Of a stretch of DNA of 62,684 bases, positions 25,224-35,313 are shown in pieces. Each line of letters opens with the position of its first letter. The stretch's first letter is position 1. The stretch comes from an uncultured Synergistales bacterium (GTDB lineage: Bacteria; Synergistota; Synergistia; Synergistales; Aminobacteriaceae), in contig CAJOES010000002.1 of the NCBI GenBank assembly GCA_905233455.1, positions 1 to 62,684 on the forward strand. The letters are read 5' to 3'. The notes below the pieces were generated by a model. That model saw only the letters and a list, made by a program, of their open reading frames with translations, was not told the origin of the DNA and ran no database searches. The position numbers and the translations under genes are program-made.

Positions 25224-26003
25224 TTACTGCTTGGGCTCAGGATAAGCAATGATCCATGGCTGTTCCCTCTGATCTTCCGGAAGCATGGAATGATCAAACC
25301 ACATTGAATAAAACTTTTCCCCGTTGTTCACCGCGTAGCCGTCCTGCTTGTGATCGCAAGTGTCGTAAGGATCAGCCATAATCAGCACGTCATCAAGAGT
25401 AGACTCCGTTCCCATAGTGTCATAGCCGATAATCACGCGCCAGTGTCCGCCCCATTCAACGTTCTCGACCATAATGGGAATACCCCGCTTCAAGTTCTCC
25501 CACGCAAAAGCCTGAAACTCCTCATATGTGTCAAAATGCTTATGCGTAAGGCTGCTATCAGTTTTCCAGCCTAAACGCTCAAAGAATGCAAGCATGTCTT
25601 TCGGGTTCGTGCCAATAGGGTAAGGCCGGGTTTTCATCTCCTTTGCGAGTCTGGCCTCATCGTAGCCGGTCTCTCCGTAATAGTAGAGAAGCGTTAATCC
25701 TGCCGCAGGGCCGCAAGTATTTTCCCTTGTCTGTTGGTATGTCGGGTAATGCCTGAGTATGATGCGGTTATCGTTCGGCGATATGCCATCAAAGTAATCC
25801 GACGTTGTGTCGAAATAGATTGATGTCTTGTGATTGATGTCTGCTGGAGCAGATGAAGCACCTTCCGTTGTAGTGTCCGTCCCGTCAGGATAGGGAATTA
25901 CACGCACCGCATTACTGCCTTCTGCAGCATTGCCATATCCCATAAGAAGTATAACCATCAACGACACGCACAGCAGCTTTGCCGCAAAAAGATTTCTGTA
26001 CAT
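25224..26003 (-). CDS. C39-like papain-fold peptidase, exported
   Basis: 259 residues with an N-terminal membrane/signal segment (about 5-26). A C39_2-type domain has the nucleophile Cys in NTCGPAAGLTLLYYYG, His in GGHWRVIIGYD and Asp in MADPYD, so the triad is complete. The family includes peptidases that cut exported peptides and others with bacterial or cell-wall targets. It is the last gene of the STAS/SpoIIE/binding-protein operon, 12 bases after the ABC ATPase fusion. A periplasmic role processing the ligand of that system is inferred. Confidence 0.82.
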   Translation of the reverse strand: MYRNLFAAKLLCVSLMVILLMGYGNAAEGSNAVRVIPYPDGTDTTTEGASSAPADINHKTSIYFDTTSDYFDGISPNDNRIILRHYPTYQQTRENTCGPAAGLTLLYYYGETGYDEARLAKEMKTRPYPIGTNPKDMLAFFERLGWKTDSSLTHKHFDTYEEFQAFAWENLKRGIPIMVENVEWGGHWRVIIGYDTMGTESTLDDVLIMADPYDTCDHKQDGYAVNNGEKFYSMWFDHSMLPEDQREQPWIIAYPEPKQ

Positions 26004-26015
26004 TATGTTTGCCTC

Positions 26016-27128
26016 CTATATCTTGATTTCTATTCTGTTCAGCCCGTCAGAAAAATCATAGCGTATATTTTCTCCGGCTATCTTCCTCAGAATCATTACG
26101 CCCAAATGCACATCATCATCTGTTTCTTCTGCAATGCCGAACGGGTTGAATTTCCTTCCGCCGCTTGTCATTGTGATTGTTGTTGAGGAGTCCGCTTCAG
26201 AGTATGATATTTCGGCCGCAATATTTACCGCCTCACCACTGCCGTAACAGCCCGAAAGCATCTCATATACGAGTTCCTCACAGCAAAGCTCCAGCCTGTA
26301 CGCGAGCCTTGAGCTTATGCCGTATTTCTCCGTGAAACCGTGAATGCCTCCCTGCATCTCCATCAAGTCAAAATACCTGCTGGTTATCTCATAGCTGAAA
26401 TATTTCAGCTTCCTGATGAATGCTATAGTCTTCTCTTTCTGCGGTGAGTCAAAGATCTCTTCCGGCGTGCCCTCCTCATATATCCCGCCGTCAGCAAAGA
26501 ACAGTACACGGTTAGCTACTTCACGGGCAAAATTCATCTCGTGCGTAACGATAATCATAGTCATATCATGCTTGGCCAGCATTCGAATCATCGCAAGAAC
26601 TTCACCGACCATCGTTGGATCAAGCGCGCTGGTAGGCTCATCGAACAGAAGTACTTTCGGCTTCATCATCAGCGAACGGCATATAGCTATTCTCTGCTGC
26701 TGTCCTCCCGATAACTTTTCCGGCATTGCATGAGCTTTCGAGGTCAGACCGACTTTCGACAGCCAGTCCATAGCGTTGGATTCTGCCTGTGCACGGGGCA
26801 TTCCCAGAAGTTTTACGGGAGCAAGGCATAAGTTGTCTATGACGTTCATGTGTGAGAACAGATAGAATTTCTGATACACCATTCCCATTTTGAGACGTAT
26901 CCTGTTGATGTCCGCACGTCTTGCTGTAATCTCTTGCCCGTCTATGAATATCTTTCCGCTGTCAGGGACTTCAAGCAGTTCAAGCGAGCGGAGGAACACG
27001 CTTTTTCCGCACCCTGACCCGCCGATTATCGCTATGCGTTCACCCTCCTCAACATTAAGGCTGAGATTCCGAAGGACATGAAGACTCCCGAATGACTTGC
27101 ACAGATCTTTTACTTCTATAAGGCTCAT
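26016..27128 (-). CDS. Amino-acid-type ABC transporter ATPase fused to a degenerate RsbW-like domain
   Basis: 370 residues. Residues 1-240 are a complete GlnQ/HisP-type ATPase with Walker A GGSGCGKSVF, signature LSGGQQQR, Walker B LLFDEPTSALDP and the switch His in VTHEM. Residues about 245-370 are an HATPase_c_2/RsbW-like domain not usually attached to such ATPases (YRLELCCEELVYEML, then SGGRKFNPFG, then LGVMILRKIAG, ending in LNRIEIKI). In that domain the N-box Asn reads Glu and the nucleotide-binding Asp before the SGG loop reads Ser, so kinase activity is doubtful; STAS binding could persist. It overlaps the permease by ATGA. Confidence 0.85.
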   Translation of the reverse strand: MSLIEVKDLCKSFGSLHVLRNLSLNVEEGERIAIIGGSGCGKSVFLRSLELLEVPDSGKIFIDGQEITARRADINRIRLKMGMVYQKFYLFSHMNVIDNLCLAPVKLLGMPRAQAESNAMDWLSKVGLTSKAHAMPEKLSGGQQQRIAICRSLMMKPKVLLFDEPTSALDPTMVGEVLAMIRMLAKHDMTMIIVTHEMNFAREVANRVLFFADGGIYEEGTPEEIFDSPQKEKTIAFIRKLKYFSYEITSRYFDLMEMQGGIHGFTEKYGISSRLAYRLELCCEELVYEMLSGCYGSGEAVNIAAEISYSEADSSTTITMTSGGRKFNPFGIAEETDDDVHLGVMILRKIAGENIRYDFSDGLNRIEIKI

Positions 27129-27802
27129 GATATGGCTTCCTTTCTATGCCGGAGATAATCCGAAAACGAAAACAGGCCGTGAACTATATACGCCATTGCA
27201 AGATATATCAGCATTCCGATAATTATCGTTGCCATAGGCTGCATTGTCCGGGAAGCTATGTTGTTGATTACGCGGGTTAAGTCCGTGATTGATACGTAGC
27301 CTACAACACTCGTCCACTGAATCAGGTTCACTATTGCGGACTGGTATACGGGCTTTGCTATCCTCACAACCTGCGGAAGGGTTACGAGCCGGAATGCCTG
27401 AAACGCCGAAAACCCTAACGTTCTTGCTGCCTCAACCTGTCCGTGATCCGTAGCACTGATTGACGCTCTCAGAATCTCTGCTACATGCGCGGCAACATTC
27501 AGCGAGAAAGTTACTACGGCTATAGTTTCTGCGTCGAGACTGCTCCGGGCAAATATCCCGTAATACATCAGCATCAACAGCATCAATACCGGAGAACCTC
27601 TCAGAATCACGATATAGATTGTTGCGAGTGTCCGCAGAATCCTGAAGCCCGACATCCTAAGCGCACATATCACAGCACCGAGAACCGTACCGAATATCAT
27701 TGACAGTACCGAAATTCTTAGTGTCGCGTTAAAGCCCTTCAGTATAGTCCAGTAAGAGCCGCCCTGAATCAGCACCCTGTATAGTATCTGGTTAAGGCTC
27801 AT
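27125..27802 (-). CDS. Amino-acid ABC transporter permease
   Basis: 225 residues of the HisM/GlnP family with five membrane segments. The EAA loop is visible as AARTLGFSAFQAFRLVTLPQVVRIAKP, and the N-terminal ILKGFNATLRISVLSMIFG is typical of polar amino-acid permeases. It would form a homodimer in the inner membrane served by the fused ATPase. Encoded between three binding proteins and the ATPase, with 3-base and overlapping junctions. Confidence 0.92.
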   Translation of the reverse strand: MSLNQILYRVLIQGGSYWTILKGFNATLRISVLSMIFGTVLGAVICALRMSGFRILRTLATIYIVILRGSPVLMLLMLMYYGIFARSSLDAETIAVVTFSLNVAAHVAEILRASISATDHGQVEAARTLGFSAFQAFRLVTLPQVVRIAKPVYQSAIVNLIQWTSVVGYVSITDLTRVINNIASRTMQPMATIIIGMLIYLAMAYIVHGLFSFSDYLRHRKEAIS

Positions 27803-27805
27803 AGT

Positions 27806-28669
27806 TTAATCCTCGTCTTTTCTTATGTGCATAAACGTATTCCATGACAGATACGGTTCTGATAGAAGCACGCTGTCGGCAACATCAGGCTGAAATTCAA
27901 GAGACCTGTTGACCTCATACCAGAAGACAGCATCAGCCCTGCCAGACACTAACGCCGCTGTTCTCGCCCCCGCACTGACATTCACTACGTCTATGTTGAC
28001 GTGCAAACGCCGCCCGATCTCTGCAAGCACTGCCATGCTGTAACCTGCAGGAAGGCCGTTATCGTCCGTGAAATCCACCGGCGGAAGGTCTCCAGTTACT
28101 GCAACCCTTACCGTAGGAGCATTGCTGAAACGTTCAAACCTTATCGTGTCATTCTTTTTTCTGCCCGTTCCGTAAATGTAGCCGTATGTGTTGTCTTCAG
28201 GAAAATTCTTTATGTATTTCTGCTCAAGTCCTGCAAGCGTGTAATCATTGCGCATTGAGATTAATGCAGTGTTCCATTTTTCGAGAAGCTCTCTGTTGTC
28301 CTCCATGAAGCCGAAGCAAAGACTCATAGTCCCGGAATTAGCGATACATGAAGGTGTGTAATCCTTGTTGACCTTCAGAAGATATTCAGCGACAAAATCA
28401 GGAAGTATCATTTCTTCGATTTCGTCCCTGTTCAAAGCCATCTGCATCAGCATCAAGGAATCATAAAATTTCGCCGTCCCTGTTGAATGATCCCCGCCGA
28501 GAATCTGCCAGCCTCTTGTTGACCATGAATTTTTCAGTATCCTGTAGAAATCTTCCGGAGTAGTTTCAAGCCTCGTGAGAAACCCAACATCTAAATCATC
28601 ATCTGCAAGCACAGGACATACCAGCAAAGCCGAAATCATCAAAGCAATAACAAAAGTTTTTATCTTCAT
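27806..28669 (-). CDS. Substrate-binding protein with permuted lobe order, paralogue 3
   Basis: 287 residues with a signal peptide cut near VLA-DDD. The first half (DVGFLTRLETTPEDF, KFYDSLMLMQMALNRDEIEEM, DNRELLEKWNTALISMRNDYTLAGLEQKYI) matches what is normally the C-terminal half of an amino-acid binding protein. The second half (VRVAVTGDLPPVDF, LPAGYSMAVLAEIG, LVSGRADAVFW, LLSEPYLSW) matches the normal N-terminal lobe. The whole type II fold is therefore present in permuted order. Start chosen at ATG 28669 behind GGAGGTAGCA. A linker with YGYIYGTG joins the ancestral termini. Ligand unknown. Confidence 0.8.
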   Translation of the reverse strand: MKIKTFVIALMISALLVCPVLADDDLDVGFLTRLETTPEDFYRILKNSWSTRGWQILGGDHSTGTAKFYDSLMLMQMALNRDEIEEMILPDFVAEYLLKVNKDYTPSCIANSGTMSLCFGFMEDNRELLEKWNTALISMRNDYTLAGLEQKYIKNFPEDNTYGYIYGTGRKKNDTIRFERFSNAPTVRVAVTGDLPPVDFTDDNGLPAGYSMAVLAEIGRRLHVNIDVVNVSAGARTAALVSGRADAVFWYEVNRSLEFQPDVADSVLLSEPYLSWNTFMHIRKDED

Positions 28670-28671
28670 TG

Positions 28672-29547
28672 CTACCTCCAATACAGATTAAAGATATTAT
28701 TCTTGAAGTCCCACCAGTCCCAAGAACCTTTACGCTTGTCCGTCTTGCGCAGGTGTATGAACTTCTGCCACTCATAGTACGGCTCAGAGAGTATTACCCC
28801 CTGCGGCACGTCAGGCTGAATCCCTTTCCCCGACATATCCACCTCATACCAGAAGACGACATCAGCCCTTCCGGAAGCAAGCGAGGCTGTCCTTGCTCCT
28901 GCGTCCACATTCAGCAGCTCAACATTCATGTGAAGTATATTTGCTATCTCTGCTAGTACTGCCGTGTTGAATCCTGCCGGGCTTCCGTCTGATGCAATGA
29001 AATCTATCGGGGGCAGGTCTCCGGTTACTGCCGCTTTGATTGCAGGTGCACCATCAAAGTGAAAGAACTTCACAGGTTCAGGAGCATTCATGCCGGGAGA
29101 AGCTATATATTTCCCTTCAAGTGCCGCCAGCGTCCAGTTGTCCCGAAGAGTCTTCAGAGCCTCATTGAACTTGTCCCGCAATTCTCCGCCGTCCTCACGG
29201 AAACCGAACGCAAGCCCGCTTCCCTTTGAGCGCAGGACGAGGAATGATTCATAGTCGTCATTCTGATTCATGAGGTATTCAGCCGCAAAGTCCGGTAATA
29301 CCATCTCGCGAATCTCTCCGGCATTCAAGGCCATCTGCATTGAAGTCAATGTGTCGTAAAACTTTACCGTTATATCCAGTGCTTCATCGTTGGGAGCAAA
29401 ATTTTTCCGCCATATTTCACTGAACTCTTCTTCCGTTGAATTGAGCTTGGAGAGGAGGCCAAGACGCAAAATTTTCTTCTCTACAGCAGCACGTGATATT
29501 CCTGCAGCAAGCATCAGGAATAAGACTGCGTAACAAACTTTCTTCAT
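28672..29547 (-). CDS. Substrate-binding protein with permuted lobe order, paralogue 2
   Basis: 291 residues with a signal peptide ending near SRA-AVE. The order is again lobe 2 (LRLGLLSKLNSTEEEF, VKFYDTLTSMQMALNAGEIREM), then the closing helices (LRDKFNEALKTLRDNWTLAALEGKYI), then lobe 1 (IKAAVTGDLPPIDF, SPAGFNTAVLAEIA, LASGRADVVFW, ILSEPYYEW). It starts one base after the stop of paralogue 1. Differences from paralogue 3 lie mostly in the first lobe, which suggests different ligands or partners. Confidence 0.8.
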   Translation of the reverse strand: MKKVCYAVLFLMLAAGISRAAVEKKILRLGLLSKLNSTEEEFSEIWRKNFAPNDEALDITVKFYDTLTSMQMALNAGEIREMVLPDFAAEYLMNQNDDYESFLVLRSKGSGLAFGFREDGGELRDKFNEALKTLRDNWTLAALEGKYIASPGMNAPEPVKFFHFDGAPAIKAAVTGDLPPIDFIASDGSPAGFNTAVLAEIANILHMNVELLNVDAGARTASLASGRADVVFWYEVDMSGKGIQPDVPQGVILSEPYYEWQKFIHLRKTDKRKGSWDWWDFKNNIFNLYWR

Positions 29548-30462
29548 TTATTGCGCCCTTCCTATGATCAGATCAGTATCCCATTCGTAATAAGGATCAG
29601 ACAAAATCACTCCGTCAAGAGAATCCTTCATTACGCCTTTAAGGTTTCTGCCCTTCACTTTTGCGGGAGTCTTCAGCCCTTCCGTGCTCCTGTACCAAAA
29701 CACGACATCTGCCCGTTCTGATGCCAGAGCCGCAGAACGTCCGCCAGCGTCCACGCTGATTAGCCGTATATTGCGCTGAAGCCTTCTGCCTATCTGGGCA
29801 AGCAGTGCAGTGTTATAGCCTGTCGGTGTTCCGTCTGAAGCAATGTAGTCGATCGGAGGCAGATCCCCCGTAACTGCAACACGTATAGTCCTTGCGCCCT
29901 TGTACTCCTGAAACTTTACCGGCATGGGGTCATTCATGCTCATATCACGAATGTATATCCTCTCCAGATTCGCTAGAGTCCCGTCTTCCTTCATTGATGC
30001 TATTGCACGGTTGAACGCCTGCTGAAGCCCGGTATTGCCGCGCTTGAAGCCGAATGATATTGTTGACGGCATCATATTGAGGGAAAACAGAATATCGTAG
30101 TTCGGATTGTTCGCGATGAGGTACATTCCTGCTGCTTCAGGAAGTGCAATTTCATCTATCTTCTTTGACCTCAAAGCCATTTGCATTGCGAGAAGTGAAT
30201 CATAGAAATGCACAACCCTGCGTGTTTTCGCAAGCGAGCCTATGAAGCCTTCAAGCCTGTCTTCCTCTGCCCATTCGCTTTCATCTTCCGGAATCAGCGG
30301 TGCTAATGCCTTGCGCAGGTCATCAAGCCCGCCCTGAAACTCTGCCTCAGTCGTGCCGAGATATGTCAATACGCCGGAATCAACGACTTCTTCACGGGAT
30401 GAAGCAAAACATGATGTACACAGCATAACAGCAAAAATTACTGCAGCTACAATTTTTCTCAC
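29548..30462 (-). CDS. Substrate-binding protein with permuted lobe order, paralogue 1
   Basis: 304 residues with a signal peptide ending near CFA-SSR; the Cys at TSC could make it a lipoprotein, though no clean lipobox is seen. The order is the same as in the two following genes: GVLTYLGTTEAEF, HFYDSLLAMQMALRSKKIDEI, LQQAFNRAIASMKEDGTLANLERIYI, then IRVAVTGDLPPIDYI, TPTGYNTALLAQIG, LASERADVVFW, ILSDPYYEW. An acidic insert of about 25 residues (EDESEWAEEDRLEG) in the first lobe is unique to this copy. It lies 16 bases after the SpoIIE-type sensor gene. Confidence 0.8.
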   Translation of the reverse strand: MRKIVAAVIFAVMLCTSCFASSREEVVDSGVLTYLGTTEAEFQGGLDDLRKALAPLIPEDESEWAEEDRLEGFIGSLAKTRRVVHFYDSLLAMQMALRSKKIDEIALPEAAGMYLIANNPNYDILFSLNMMPSTISFGFKRGNTGLQQAFNRAIASMKEDGTLANLERIYIRDMSMNDPMPVKFQEYKGARTIRVAVTGDLPPIDYIASDGTPTGYNTALLAQIGRRLQRNIRLISVDAGGRSAALASERADVVFWYRSTEGLKTPAKVKGRNLKGVMKDSLDGVILSDPYYEWDTDLIIGRAQ

Positions 30463-30478
30463 AGTAACAAAATCTCCC

Positions 30479-32521
30479 TTACTCTAAAATTTTTCTGACG
30501 GTTAAAATATTTTTCCCGTCCTTATGCTTGTAGGATACGTTATCCATATTCTTTTTCACAAGATATATTCCCAAGCCTCCTACATTCCTTTCATCAGCAG
30601 ACAGCGTAACGTCAGGGTCAGGATTCATCAGGGGATCGTAAGGCGTTCCGGAATCAGTGAAGGTTATCACTGCCGACAAAGGATTTTCATGAATCTCTAC
30701 CCTTACTGACGCATTGCCGGTCTCGGGTGCATAAGCATAATGCGCTATGTTCACGAAAATTTCTTCTGCGGCCAAGTCTATCTGCATTTGTGTTTTGGGC
30801 GGGCAGTCTGCGGCTTCTAGCTTTTCATCAATAAAGCTAATGACCTGCTCAAGGTTATTCACGTCAGCTTCTAGGGTGATTTCATTGCTCCCGAAATATC
30901 TCACGCATAACATAGTCATATCATCGAATTGCGGTGCATCTCCCGTGAAATCATCTACGGACTTCTTCATTGACGCTAAAATTTCTTCCGCCGTGCCGTC
31001 AAGCGTGGTGTTGAGTGCTTCAAGCATTCTGTCAGTTCCGTAAAGCTCATCATCAGAGTTTGTTGCTTCTGCTACACCGTCAGTGTACAGATACAGATTA
31101 TCGCCGGGATTAAGCGTAAATTCATTCTCCCTGAATTTCATTCCCTCCATTGTTGCGACCGCAGGACTGTTCCTGCCCTTCAGTAGCTCATACTTTCCGC
31201 CAGCCCTGAATACGGCAGGATACTCATGACCGGCATTTGAGGCAGTAACCTTGCCTGAAGAGATCTCCAGAATCCCAAGCCACACAGTAACGAACAGATC
31301 CGCTTCATTGCCCTCGCATAACTGCCTGTTCACGTCCGCAAGAATCTCTGCCGGACTCTTAGCCCCTCCGGTCTGCGCAAGGTTCTTGATGAGCGTCTTG
31401 GCCGTCATCATGAACAGTGCCGCAGGGACTCCCTTTCCGGAAACGTCCGCCATAACAAGCCCCAAATGATCATCATCAATCATGAAGAAATCGTAGAAAT
31501 CTCCCCCGACTTCTTTTGCCGGTGTCATCGTAGCGTATATCTCGAATTCTTTTCGTTCCGGGAAATCACGCGGAAGAATATCGGCCTGAATCTGCGCTGC
31601 TATGTTCAGTTCGGCTTTTGTCTGTTCCTGCTCACGGGTTATGCGCGTCAGGTCCTCAACATACCGCAAAATATCAGCTTCCATAACGTCAATAGTTTTT
31701 GCGAGCTGGCCAATCTCGTTGCTGACAGTGATATTTTCGCCTAACGGGAGTTCAGGCCGGGTGTTCTCGTGTGCAAAACGCATTGTTTCATCCGCAATTA
31801 TCTGAATCGGCCTGATGAGATTCCTGCTCAGGTACAGCCCGTAACACACAAGCACCAGCAATAACAGCACTCCCGCAGCACTAAGCACGCTGTGAATGTA
31901 TCTATAGCGTATATTGTCCAGTTCCTCCATGCGCCGCTCAACACCCAATACCGCAATGATTTCGCCGTTCTCATCCCTGAAAGGCTGAAGGACTGCAACA
32001 TGATTCCCGGATTCTTCAACTTCATTGCCCTCCGGACGGTAAATAGATATTTCGACTCCTTCTTCATGCTCATCATAGATTCTCCTGAAGGCCGACAAAT
32101 ATCTTCTGTCCGTCTGCGTAAACCTGAATCCGCTCGTGTATTCGTGGTCTTGGGGGTATATGTCGGTATTGATTGAGTCTATGATGAATTCTGCGTCCTC
32201 GTATTCCTTCCCTGACGACACAAACGCATAGATATATGTAGCTCTCTGCGTCCTGACGAGAGTACGCCATATTCCCCTGATCCTGCGGTTCTCGTCCTGC
32301 CATTCTTCTGAGGCATAATCCCTGTGCTTCACAAAGTCCGGTGGAAGATACGCCGCCGCAGTCCTGGCAGTGTTGAATGCACTTTCTGCGTACTGCCTCT
32401 CTATTGCCCCGGTGAACTGGTAATACCCTATGTTGCTTGTTATTAGCGTGAGGAGTGCAAGAACAAGAAAAACCCCTGCAAGTATCTGTACTGCTATATT
32501 ATGTTTTATCTTACTTAACAT
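30479..32521 (-). CDS. Membrane sensor with HAMP, SpoIIE-type PP2C phosphatase and RsbW-type kinase domains
   Basis: 680 residues. A membrane helix (about 10-32) is followed by a Cache-like extracytoplasmic domain (to about 215), a second helix, and a HAMP and coiled linker (about 240-305). The SpoIIE phosphatase domain comes next (AAQIQADILPRDFP, EVGGDFYDFF, MADVSGKGVPAALFM, SNAGHEYP, LYTDGVAEATN, FDDMTMLCVRYF). The C-terminal HATPase_c_2 domain is intact (AAEEIFVNIAHYAY, TFTDSGTPYDP, GGLGIYLVKK). It therefore joins the two opposing enzymes of a partner switch, phosphatase and kinase for a STAS protein, under one external sensor. The STAS gene is four genes upstream. Confidence 0.92.
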   Translation of the reverse strand: MLSKIKHNIAVQILAGVFLVLALLTLITSNIGYYQFTGAIERQYAESAFNTARTAAAYLPPDFVKHRDYASEEWQDENRRIRGIWRTLVRTQRATYIYAFVSSGKEYEDAEFIIDSINTDIYPQDHEYTSGFRFTQTDRRYLSAFRRIYDEHEEGVEISIYRPEGNEVEESGNHVAVLQPFRDENGEIIAVLGVERRMEELDNIRYRYIHSVLSAAGVLLLLVLVCYGLYLSRNLIRPIQIIADETMRFAHENTRPELPLGENITVSNEIGQLAKTIDVMEADILRYVEDLTRITREQEQTKAELNIAAQIQADILPRDFPERKEFEIYATMTPAKEVGGDFYDFFMIDDDHLGLVMADVSGKGVPAALFMMTAKTLIKNLAQTGGAKSPAEILADVNRQLCEGNEADLFVTVWLGILEISSGKVTASNAGHEYPAVFRAGGKYELLKGRNSPAVATMEGMKFRENEFTLNPGDNLYLYTDGVAEATNSDDELYGTDRMLEALNTTLDGTAEEILASMKKSVDDFTGDAPQFDDMTMLCVRYFGSNEITLEADVNNLEQVISFIDEKLEAADCPPKTQMQIDLAAEEIFVNIAHYAYAPETGNASVRVEIHENPLSAVITFTDSGTPYDPLMNPDPDVTLSADERNVGGLGIYLVKKNMDNVSYKHKDGKNILTVRKILE

Positions 32522-32524
32522 GAT

Positions 32525-33541
32525 TCATATATTAACATGATTCATATAGTTTTCTATTCTGGTTTTTACGTTCTCCTGCAGATTCCTGAAAAAGAACAGG
32601 TAATCATATACATGATATGCCCCTTCAGGAAGAAGAGATACAACAGCAGGATATTCATGCGCGTCTATGTCCGGGATTTTCATGATCCCCCGTTCCGTGT
32701 CAAGATACCCGCCGCAGAACTCTGAAACCTCACGCGTAATTTTCCCGCTGTAATCCGTGAAACATGCTCCCCGGTTCAGGCTTTTGTCCGCATATGTGTC
32801 ATCTGTTCTCCAGTTGAGCGGATTCACGGCAAATGCTTTGCGCCCGGCAGGGTAAAACGCCGTAGCAGTTATTCCGGGAGCTTCACACTCAAAGCTGATT
32901 ATGACTCCCGTATCACGTTCAGACTGTGCAGGCTTCATGTGAGGGTATTTCTCCGCCGTATCCGGAGTGAAAGCCCAGCCTATAGCGTACACAGCCACGA
33001 GCCGTTCATGCAGTGCCTTATCCCCAAAATACTCCTGCATCAGACGGTAACACATATCTGCTCCCTGTGAGAATCCTGCAAGAATTATGGGCCGTCCGTT
33101 ATTCTCGTGCTCAAGGTAATACGAGAATGCCGCTGAAACATCCTCATACGCAACAGCAAAGAATTTTTCACGTTCCGATTCAGGGAGTTCATACACCTTC
33201 ATTGCCGCCTGCCTGTAATACGGTGCATACATCCTTGTATATGCCTCGTAAATCCCGCGCTCCATGTTAAGCGCACCAGCAAAATTTTTCTTCGTCTTGT
33301 CATCAGACAGAGACATATTATGTTCGTCCTTCATGTCAACTGTAGGGCATAACAAAAAGAGGTCAGCAGGTTTTTCTCTGCCGCCCTCCTGAAAATATAC
33401 CCAGTTCTCCGCTGAGGAATAAATGTTTGCGTCCGGTTCATCATGCCCGACGTAAACAGGGAAGAATAATAATACTGAAAGCGCGGTAACAGCAGAGCAC
33501 AATAGAAACAGATTTTTTCTGCTTACTGCTGTCCTGTTCAT
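32525..33541 (-). CDS. DUF3089-like alpha/beta-hydrolase, membrane anchored
   Basis: 338 residues with an N-terminal hydrophobic anchor (about 11-28). The nucleophile elbow is GFSQGAD near 160, and the block DLFLLCPTVDM is typical of DUF3089-type hydrolases. A His near the C-terminus (HVYDYLFFFRNL) could complete the triad. It probably acts in the periplasm as an esterase or peptidase-like hydrolase. Substrate unknown. It sits in the middle of the STAS/SpoIIE operon, 3 bases before the sensor gene. Confidence 0.72.
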   Translation of the reverse strand: MNRTAVSRKNLFLLCSAVTALSVLLFFPVYVGHDEPDANIYSSAENWVYFQEGGREKPADLFLLCPTVDMKDEHNMSLSDDKTKKNFAGALNMERGIYEAYTRMYAPYYRQAAMKVYELPESEREKFFAVAYEDVSAAFSYYLEHENNGRPIILAGFSQGADMCYRLMQEYFGDKALHERLVAVYAIGWAFTPDTAEKYPHMKPAQSERDTGVIISFECEAPGITATAFYPAGRKAFAVNPLNWRTDDTYADKSLNRGACFTDYSGKITREVSEFCGGYLDTERGIMKIPDIDAHEYPAVVSLLPEGAYHVYDYLFFFRNLQENVKTRIENYMNHVNI

Positions 33542-33554
33542 GTCATCAGCCCTG

Positions 33555-34232
33555 TTACTTTACGGGGAAATCAAAATATGTGTCCGGGTATGGCTCATCA
33601 TTCAGCGTGAAGTGCCACCATTCCGTAGCTAACGGCCTGAATCCGTGCTTGGTCATTGCCTCACGCAGAATCATTCTGTTGCTGTACTGTTCTTCGGTGA
33701 TATTCTTGTAGTCCGGGTGAGATTCCTCGCCGAAATAGTCGAACGTCCCGCCCATGTCCGCTTCTTTCTCCGTGTTCATATCAAACAGCGTCAGATCAAC
33801 AGTGCTTCCCCTGCTGTGTCCGGACTTGTAGTCAATATATCCCTGATCGAACAAAACTGACTTATCGAGGTTGGGATAAAAATACTGCTTCATGCGGGTA
33901 TCTTCAACGTTCTCCGCCCATTGCGCAAAATGAGTTACTGCCCTCTGCGGTCTGTATGCGTCATATATCTTCAGCCTGTAACCCTTCGTGATGAGTTCGT
34001 CGCTGACATCCTTTAGTGCTTTGGCCGCCTCTTTGGTCAGCATTGCTACAGGGGTTTCATAGCCGTTGATCCTGTCGCCCACAAAGTTATACGTTGAATA
34101 GTAGCGTATCTCCAGTATTGCATCAGGCACTGCTTCAGACAGCAGAACGAAATCCGAATTATCATAGGGATCTGCACCGAACGCAGAACCTGCCATCAAA
34201 AAAATAATAACTGCAAGCAAAAATTTTCTCAT
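33555..34232 (-). CDS. D-alanyl-D-alanine dipeptidase (VanX/DdpX family), exported
   Basis: 225 residues with a signal peptide (cut near FGA-DPY). Zinc and catalytic motifs are complete: SGHSRGSTVDLTL (SxHxxGxxxD) near 138, EWWHF near 205 and the substrate-contact Arg in YDAYRPQRAV. It cleaves D-Ala-D-Ala. Because it has a signal peptide, it more likely recycles or scavenges wall-derived dipeptide, like DdpX, than confers vancomycin resistance. It lies between the acyltransferase and hydrolase genes of the operon. Confidence 0.92.
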   Translation of the reverse strand: MRKFLLAVIIFLMAGSAFGADPYDNSDFVLLSEAVPDAILEIRYYSTYNFVGDRINGYETPVAMLTKEAAKALKDVSDELITKGYRLKIYDAYRPQRAVTHFAQWAENVEDTRMKQYFYPNLDKSVLFDQGYIDYKSGHSRGSTVDLTLFDMNTEKEADMGGTFDYFGEESHPDYKNITEEQYSNRMILREAMTKHGFRPLATEWWHFTLNDEPYPDTYFDFPVK

Positions 34233-34233
34233 C

Positions 34234-35313
34234 TTAATATTTACCTCCTTTAAGGATTTCCCGGCGTTCCTGCACCATGCAGAAGACAGTACAGCAGATC
34301 ACCGAGAATACCCAAACCATAACGGATTTGGCGAAAACTTCAGGCGTTACGCTCTCAACATACCAGCGATCCGGACTCAGCTTGATATACGTGTGCAGAA
34401 GGTCAGAAGCAATCATAGCGAATATGCCGTGCAGCAGCAGGAATCTGAATGAATTTCTGCCGACAAAAGCTAAAATCTTCGTGATATGTTCCGGACATAA
34501 CTTGCAGAACACATACACCGCATATCCTCCCGTGAATGTCTGCACGAAAAACGGTATCACGCTCCATCTTCCGACAGTTCCGAGCTGGCTCGCAAACGCG
34601 TAATCATTGCCGCAGAAATGGTACATCACTGCATGAAGCACCACAGCCGCAGCCGCAACCGGCACGCTTGGCCTGATACTGCCGGAATGCCGGGAGAGCC
34701 ATGCACCGCACAGCATTATCGCCGCATATACGGGCGTTGCAGTGAGACTCCATGATACATGACTGCCGAGACCGTACAGCAATATTCCCGCCGATAACAG
34801 CACAACGCATGACACGCACAAACACGCAGTATCCTTCAGGGCATAACCTGAAACAGGATAGAACACCATATACGAAAGCACCATAGTCCAGACGAACCAC
34901 ACTGGAGAAATGCACTCAAACAGTATTCCGCCGACTCCCCATTCAGGAAGCAGGGCAGAAGCAAATTCCGGCCTCAAGTACGTATGTATTGCATCACGCA
35001 ACCAGTCCTGCGCAGTGCAGCCGTGAAACGCCATGCAGTATATTCCGCCGAACAGCAACAACAGCATCGTATATTTCAGCGCGGGGAGAAACAGAACCTT
35101 AAGCCTGTGCATCACATTCTCCCTTAATGTGCGCTCATCACGGAAATTCCAGCCGGACAGCACAAAGAAAAACGGAACAAACAGCCATATCAATTCGCAC
35201 AAAATTATGTCTGCCGTGCCGTTTTCGGGCCTGTACACAAGATGATAGATACTCACTAAAATTATTCCGAGACCTTTAGCCGTATCTATATCTGCTTTGC
35301 GGCTGGTGTTCAT
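34234..35313 (-). CDS. Acyltransferase 3 family membrane protein
   Basis: 359 residues with about 10 membrane helices. The N-terminal motif RKADIDTAKGLGIILVSIYH and the FVPFFFVLSGWNF segment (normally FFxxSG) mark the OafA/WecH-type acyltransferase 3 family, which moves acyl groups onto sugars or wall polymers. The catalytic His would be the one in SIYHLVYRP. Its start shares a base with the stop of the STAS gene, so the two are translationally linked. Acceptor unknown. Confidence 0.85.
   Translation of the reverse strand: MNTSRKADIDTAKGLGIILVSIYHLVYRPENGTADIILCELIWLFVPFFFVLSGWNFRDERTLRENVMHRLKVLFLPALKYTMLLLLFGGIYCMAFHGCTAQDWLRDAIHTYLRPEFASALLPEWGVGGILFECISPVWFVWTMVLSYMVFYPVSGYALKDTACLCVSCVVLLSAGILLYGLGSHVSWSLTATPVYAAIMLCGAWLSRHSGSIRPSVPVAAAAVVLHAVMYHFCGNDYAFASQLGTVGRWSVIPFFVQTFTGGYAVYVFCKLCPEHITKILAFVGRNSFRFLLLHGIFAMIASDLLHTYIKLSPDRWYVESVTPEVFAKSVMVWVFSVICCTVFCMVQERREILKGGKY

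Follow-up and report, generated by a model that had tools for sequence, protein, structure and literature searches.

Family-3 substrate-binding proteins with the C-terminal half ahead of the N-terminal half, encoded with an ABC permease and ATPase in a Synergistales bacterium

Permuted binding proteins in the window

Three adjacent genes in the window (the whole stretch of 62,684 nucleotides that was analysed, from a gut bacterium) were confirmed to encode family-3 (PF00497) binding proteins in which the C-terminal half stands ahead of the N-terminal half. It is highly probable that these proteins, SBP1, SBP2 and SBP3, are circularly permuted periplasmic receptors of one ABC importer, which would consist of three receptors, one permease and one ATPase.

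All three ORFs are located on the minus strand, at the positions given by an earlier sequence-only reading of the same DNA. SBP1 (29548-30462, 304 aa) has a signal peptide at approximately residues 1-21. Its C-type half (29959-30381), i.e. the second lobe with the C-terminal helices, corresponds to the second half of SBP_bac_3 and comes first in the chain, with positions 156-248 of TIGR01096 on residues 84-169. A linker of about 20 residues (29896-29958), which joins the ancestral C- and N-termini, leads to the N-type half, or first lobe (29551-29895), where positions 1-62 of PF00497 match residues 193-254. SBP2 (28672-29547, 291 aa), the protein modelled with AlphaFold, likewise comprises a C-type half (29101-29484, model residues 1-128), a linker (29044-29100, model residues 129-147) and an N-type half (28738-29043, model residues 148-249). 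In SBP3 (27806-28666, 286 aa), the C-type half (28202-28594) is followed by a linker made longer than usual by an insertion (28115-28201) and by the N-type half (27809-28114), in which positions 1-94 of PF00497 fall on residues 186-285. The ATG at 28666 was preferred as the start of SBP3 over the TTG at 28681, since GGAGG lies just upstream of the ATG. A start codon, a signal peptide and a stop codon are present in each gene, so the permuted order is no gene-boundary artefact.

The motifs on which the sequence-only reading relied were recovered with small deviations. The first half contains FYDSL/FYDTL...MQMAL...EI/EM...LP and then TLAxLExxYI, and the second half, about 20 residues on, contains (V/A)AVTGDLPP(I/V)D(F/Y)...G(Y/F)(N/S)...A(V/L)LA(E/Q)I...(S/E)RAD(V/A)VFW...LS(E/D)PYxxW.

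Crossed order in family profiles

Each window protein gave two PF00497 matches in crossed order (E 8e-16 to 2e-14), with the start of the profile at the end of the protein, and scores of 53.9-58.4 bits against a gathering cut-off of 26.4. Based on Pfam and NCBIfam models, the order was crossed in all three proteins and the N half preceded the C half in none, which makes them a permuted variant of SBP_bac_3 and not ordinary members. The same crossed order was found in full-length SBP1 orthologues (64-71% identity) from 21 genomes of the genus. The half-profiles do not confuse the lobes: on an ordinary binding protein, the N model gave 85 bits for the N half against 1.5 for the C half, and the C model scored 52 and 1.

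Each protein was also un-permuted in silico, and the native sequence and its hand-rotated copy were scored against family models. For L001, a canonical permuted relative from the same genome, the TIGR01096 score rose from 124.7 bits in two crossed stretches to 132.7 in one, covering positions 25-250 of 250; the scores against HisJ and ArgT rose from 71.8 to 80.2 and from 63.3 to 71.1, respectively. For SBP2, two stretches with 53.7 bits became a single one with 58.8 (positions 26-250 of 250) on un-permutation. The NCBIfam score of SBP1, which is more divergent, was not raised by this treatment.

A profile of 27 relatives (A1) was searched against PDB sequences. On AncQR (4zv1) it aligned in crossed order, with profile positions 147-250 on chain residues 10-104 and positions 26-126 on residues 129-230. 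On the GlnP tandem (6h30) it aligned in one piece, running from the second lobe of domain 1 into the first lobe of domain 2, as expected of a chain built as a second half plus the next first half.

Predicted structure

AlphaFold was run on the A1 alignment with SBP2 as the query. The predicted model is one compact fold (pLDDT 86.5, pTM 0.83) in which the linker region appears ordered, judging from a pLDDT of 85-97 across this block. This model agrees with a single closed two-lobed type II fold. The chain would pass from the second lobe through the C-terminal helices and the conserved, ordered linker of about 20 residues to the ancestral N-terminal strand. It would end at the strand that was formerly the first hinge, which would reduce the covalent hinge strands from two to one. 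Ligand closure may take place within one chain, as in an ordinary venus-flytrap receptor, and the ligand would then be handed to the permease encoded alongside.

When compared in sequence order, no solved protein fitted the SBP2 model well in Foldseek (TM about 0.5 or less, LysR regulators at the top). VIA-align in sequence order gave a Z of at most 11.5, with OpuAC first among matches tied to within 1 Z unit. The control was one model of a divergent ordinary-order family-3 domain, that of the sensor kinase L003 from the same genome (pLDDT 82.8, pTM 0.75). It reached a TM of up to 0.85 and a Z of 20.6-22.5, with family-3 proteins at the top. Against the same target, GlnBP (1wdn), the Z was 10.1 for the window protein versus 20.6 for the control.

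Because the type II fold has pseudo-symmetric lobes, the SBP2 model should retain a Z of about 10. The same pseudo-symmetry, with a sequence-order Z that still reaches about 10-11 over 170-215 residues, could be taken to mean that no permutation exists, i.e. that two unrelated half-domains were fused or that an ordinary protein was misread through the resemblance of its lobes. We regard this as extremely improbable: the half-profiles are specific, both halves belong to family 3 and jointly span TIGR01096 in SBP2 and L001, and the ordinary control reaches twice the Z. The earlier proposal, namely circular permutants whose old ends are joined by about 20 residues, is thus supported by the crossed profiles, the gain of L001 and SBP2 on un-permutation and the comparison of the model with the control.

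Distribution of the permuted order

In the genome of origin, PF00497 detected eight permuted proteins and one domain of ordinary order. Among the family-3 proteins of this genome (L001-L012), all are permuted save the domain of the sensor kinase L003. In transport, the ordinary form looks as though it had been displaced by the permuted one.

Relatives were present in 24 of the 24 other genomes sampled from the genus, and 21 of these encode a full-length SBP1 orthologue. A search of the phylum (188 genomes) returned strong full-length matches to L001 in this genus and four further genera of its family. The architecture was checked on the matching protein itself in three of the four (L168-L170) and on the receptor-permease fusions L163 and L166 in the fourth (g24). 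A permuted receptor-permease fusion also occurs in another family (G027, L172), and ordinary-order proteins are present in the remaining genomes. Those relatives that are named come from metagenome genomes of Synergistaceae and Fretibacterium, mostly of ruminant origin where the source is stated.

The profile search for homologues proposed along with the permutation showed the order to be near-universal among such relatives in the genus. The order was initially called rare, which does not hold: the collected ORFs include 239 single C-N proteins against 34 N-C proteins, plus arrays, and the permuted proteins form a large family across a genus of rumen Synergistaceae and some of its relatives. 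Nor was the protein triplicated here, as had been supposed. SBP1, SBP2 and SBP3 each have their own orthologues in other species, which makes the triplication old, and a recent triplication was rejected.

The distribution outside Synergistota was read from a plasmid collection. Plasmid pSRC1 of Selenomonas ruminantium (Negativicutes) carries one full relative together with a permease and an ATPase; the annotation of this relative reads simply substrate-binding protein. This copy is a case of cross-phylum spread in the rumen. The pSRC1 system (L207, 3270-5953 of NC_017078.1) is of the window type, and its receptor is a lipoprotein. No relatives were found in a scan of viral contigs. A Burkholderia match with 96% coverage (H3) was excluded as a permuted relative, being a protein of ordinary order.

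Binding pocket

The canonical permuted class and the window class were compared at Arg77 and Asp161 (HisJ numbering), the alpha-amino-acid clamp of HisJ. The canonical class keeps Arg77 in 7/7 sequences and Asp161 in 6/7 and, judging from these residues, probably imports polar amino acids. Among the 96 sequences of the window class, Val, Ile and Ala predominate at the Arg77 position, with no Arg among the residues found; Pro occupies the Asp161 position in 90 of them, and Arg the Leu52 position in 95. Since the amino-acid-binding Arg and Asp are lost, the ligand of the window class is probably no ordinary amino acid; a different, likely anionic ligand is suggested by the sequences.

Operon and neighbouring genes

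The permease and ATPase genes lie next to SBP3 on the same strand. The cognate permease (BPD_transp_1, 27125-27802) is kept beside the binding proteins, and the ABC ATPase (26016-27128) has about 130 extra aa at its C-terminus, a domain similar to HATPase_c_2. Directly upstream of SBP1 is a membrane protein with HAMP, SpoIIE phosphatase and HATPase domains (30479-32521, minus strand), which is conserved in the operon. The order SpoIIE-SBP1-SBP2-SBP3-permease-ATPase recurs in many rumen genomes, where each paralogue is represented by its own orthologue. The ATPase tail (26019-26410, minus strand) matched the operon's own HATPase domain in hhalign (E 6e-5, probability 64%), and the catalytic Asn motif was not read in it. 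Degenerate HATPase_c_2 (anti-sigma kinase-like) tails of about 130 aa also occur in the ATPases of L159, L162, L163, L165, L166, L172 and L207. The ATPase of a canonical permuted system (L218) is without such a tail.

The conserved HAMP-SpoIIE-HATPase protein suggests a partner-switching signal tied to the importer. It could even be proposed that the window-class proteins are not transport receptors and instead act as sensors or co-ligands feeding the SpoIIE-type phosphatase and the HATPase-like tail of the ATPase. The loss of the amino-acid pocket residues, the phosphatase gene immediately upstream and the degenerate tail would agree with such a role. However, the adjacency to permease and ATPase genes is conserved, an ordinary type I ABC importer requires a receptor, and the Selenomonas plasmid copy keeps the SBP-permease-ATPase set while lacking a SpoIIE gene within the 8 kb that were read. 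Such a role in place of transport is therefore rather unlikely, and we retain the assignment of SBP1-3 as receptors of the importer.

A secreted C39-like cysteine peptidase is encoded directly downstream of the ATPase as part of the operon (25224-26003, minus strand), and upstream genes (32525-35313, minus strand) encode a DUF3089 alpha/beta hydrolase, a VanY/VanX-like dipeptidase and an acyltransferase-like membrane protein. L051 and L067 also have C39-type genes close to permuted receptors, and VanY-like genes recur in the vicinity of window-class receptors (L054, L062, L080).

Arrays fused to the permease

The GlnP-type covalent fusion of receptor and permease is absent in the window, where these are separate ORFs, and was found in L002, L159-L166, L172 and L216. 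In some genomes, array proteins of 764-2261 aa combine a signal peptide with two to eight permuted units and the permease. Such fusions were located in L159 (3641-10423), L160 (5161-11922), L161 (3984-9536), L162 (3066-8429), L163-L166 and L216, and in most of them an ABC ATPase gene comes next. A single C-N unit is fused to one permease in L002 and L172.

The arrays always start with a C half and end with an N half where a contig end does not cut them. Their C-to-N linkers measure 20 residues (sd 0.8, n=42) and their N-to-C linkers 23 residues (sd 4.5, range 15-35, n=33); the N-to-C hinge crossing of ordinary proteins has a median of 14. Because the C-to-N linker is constant and the N-to-C linker is variable, the permuted C-N pair is the unit. 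In single proteins, the median C-to-N length is 21 in the canonical class and 20 in the window class, and this equality favours one origin.

These linkers also bear on the nature of the native particle. With a permuted chain, the second lobe of one molecule could pair with the first lobe of another, for instance between SBP1 and SBP2, giving domain-swapped mixed assemblies. Three permuted receptors are co-encoded in one operon, the tandem arrays are ordered C-N-C-N, and swapped elements have been shown in permuted constructs of the ribose-binding protein (PMC10601554), all of which would suit such pairing. On the other hand, the predicted monomer is compact and confident with an apparently ordered linker, the constant C-to-N and variable N-to-C lengths mark C-N as an intrachain unit, and a lone C-N unit exists with one permease. 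Domain swapping is thus quite improbable, and closure within a single chain remains our preferred reading.

Origin of the permuted order

We propose that the permuted form may have arisen from a GlnP-type tandem pair by loss of the outer halves, namely the first half of copy 1 and the second half of copy 2. A GlnP-like N-C-N-C-permease without its first N and last C would be C-N-permease, the arrangement of L002 and L172, and the former inter-domain linker would become the new internal linker. No N-C-N-C intermediate was seen among the proteins of the phylum, where permeases fused to one ordinary N-C unit do exist.

In the trees, the window class has a support of 0.976, and the split between permuted and ordinary proteins is weak: 0.338 in the concatenated tree, and 0.917 in the C-half tree with one long-branch exception. 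A single origin of the permuted proteins is weakly supported by these trees, and separate origins of the canonical and window classes are possible. We lean slightly towards a single permutation having founded a clade that came to handle nearly all family-3 uptake in the rumen Synergistaceae genus, acquired new ligands, was strung into permease-fused chains of up to eight receptors and crossed phyla on a plasmid. If so, up to eight receptors per chain would amount to sixteen per importer, provided that the permease is homodimeric like GlnP.

Comparison with known systems

The window proteins resemble the family-3 binding proteins (PF00497; HisJ, GlnH, LAO; cluster F) in that both halves are homologous over the full length, a signal peptide is present and permease and ATPase genes adjoin. 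They differ in the reversed halves and in a predicted single covalent hinge strand where the ordinary proteins have two, and the Arg and Asp clamp of the amino acid is missing from the window class.

Among ABC-importer receptors, a naturally occurring circular permutant is TpMglB-2 (Tp0684) of Treponema pallidum ('Cluster Bc'), a type I fold that binds glucose and changes conformation (PMC4990184). There, however, the ligand is a sugar and the cut lies inside the sheet of one lobe and not at the lobe boundary. A type I fold with a permuted N-lobe sheet of this kind was not found in the window sequences, which are family 3 and type II. Within the type II fold, the glycine betaine receptors OpuAC and ProX are natural mutual permutants (PMC2395249). 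OpuAC gives the top VIA-align match to the SBP2 model, among near ties, but these receptors belong to another sequence family, and no PF04069 (OpuAC-like) match was found in the window proteins at E up to 1. GlnPQ, in which two tandem receptors of ordinary order are fused to the permease with an inter-domain linker of at least 14 aa (PMC8025302), shares with the arrays the tandem permease-fused binding domains, and the window profile runs contiguously across the GlnP domain junction. Unlike GlnPQ, the relatives of the window proteins have up to eight permuted units, and the window receptors are separate proteins.

No report of permuted family-3 proteins or permuted arrays was found in open-licence full texts. 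As far as we found, this would be the first permuted branch known in the best-studied family of amino-acid receptors, with a radiation visible from single soluble receptors to fusions of eight. Annotation that is blind to order labels such proteins as ordinary binding proteins. A canonical permuted protein and an ordinary homologue score 125 and 122 bits, respectively, against TIGR01096, and such similarity-matched homologues make the effect of the hinge-strand cut on closing, affinity and delivery directly measurable.
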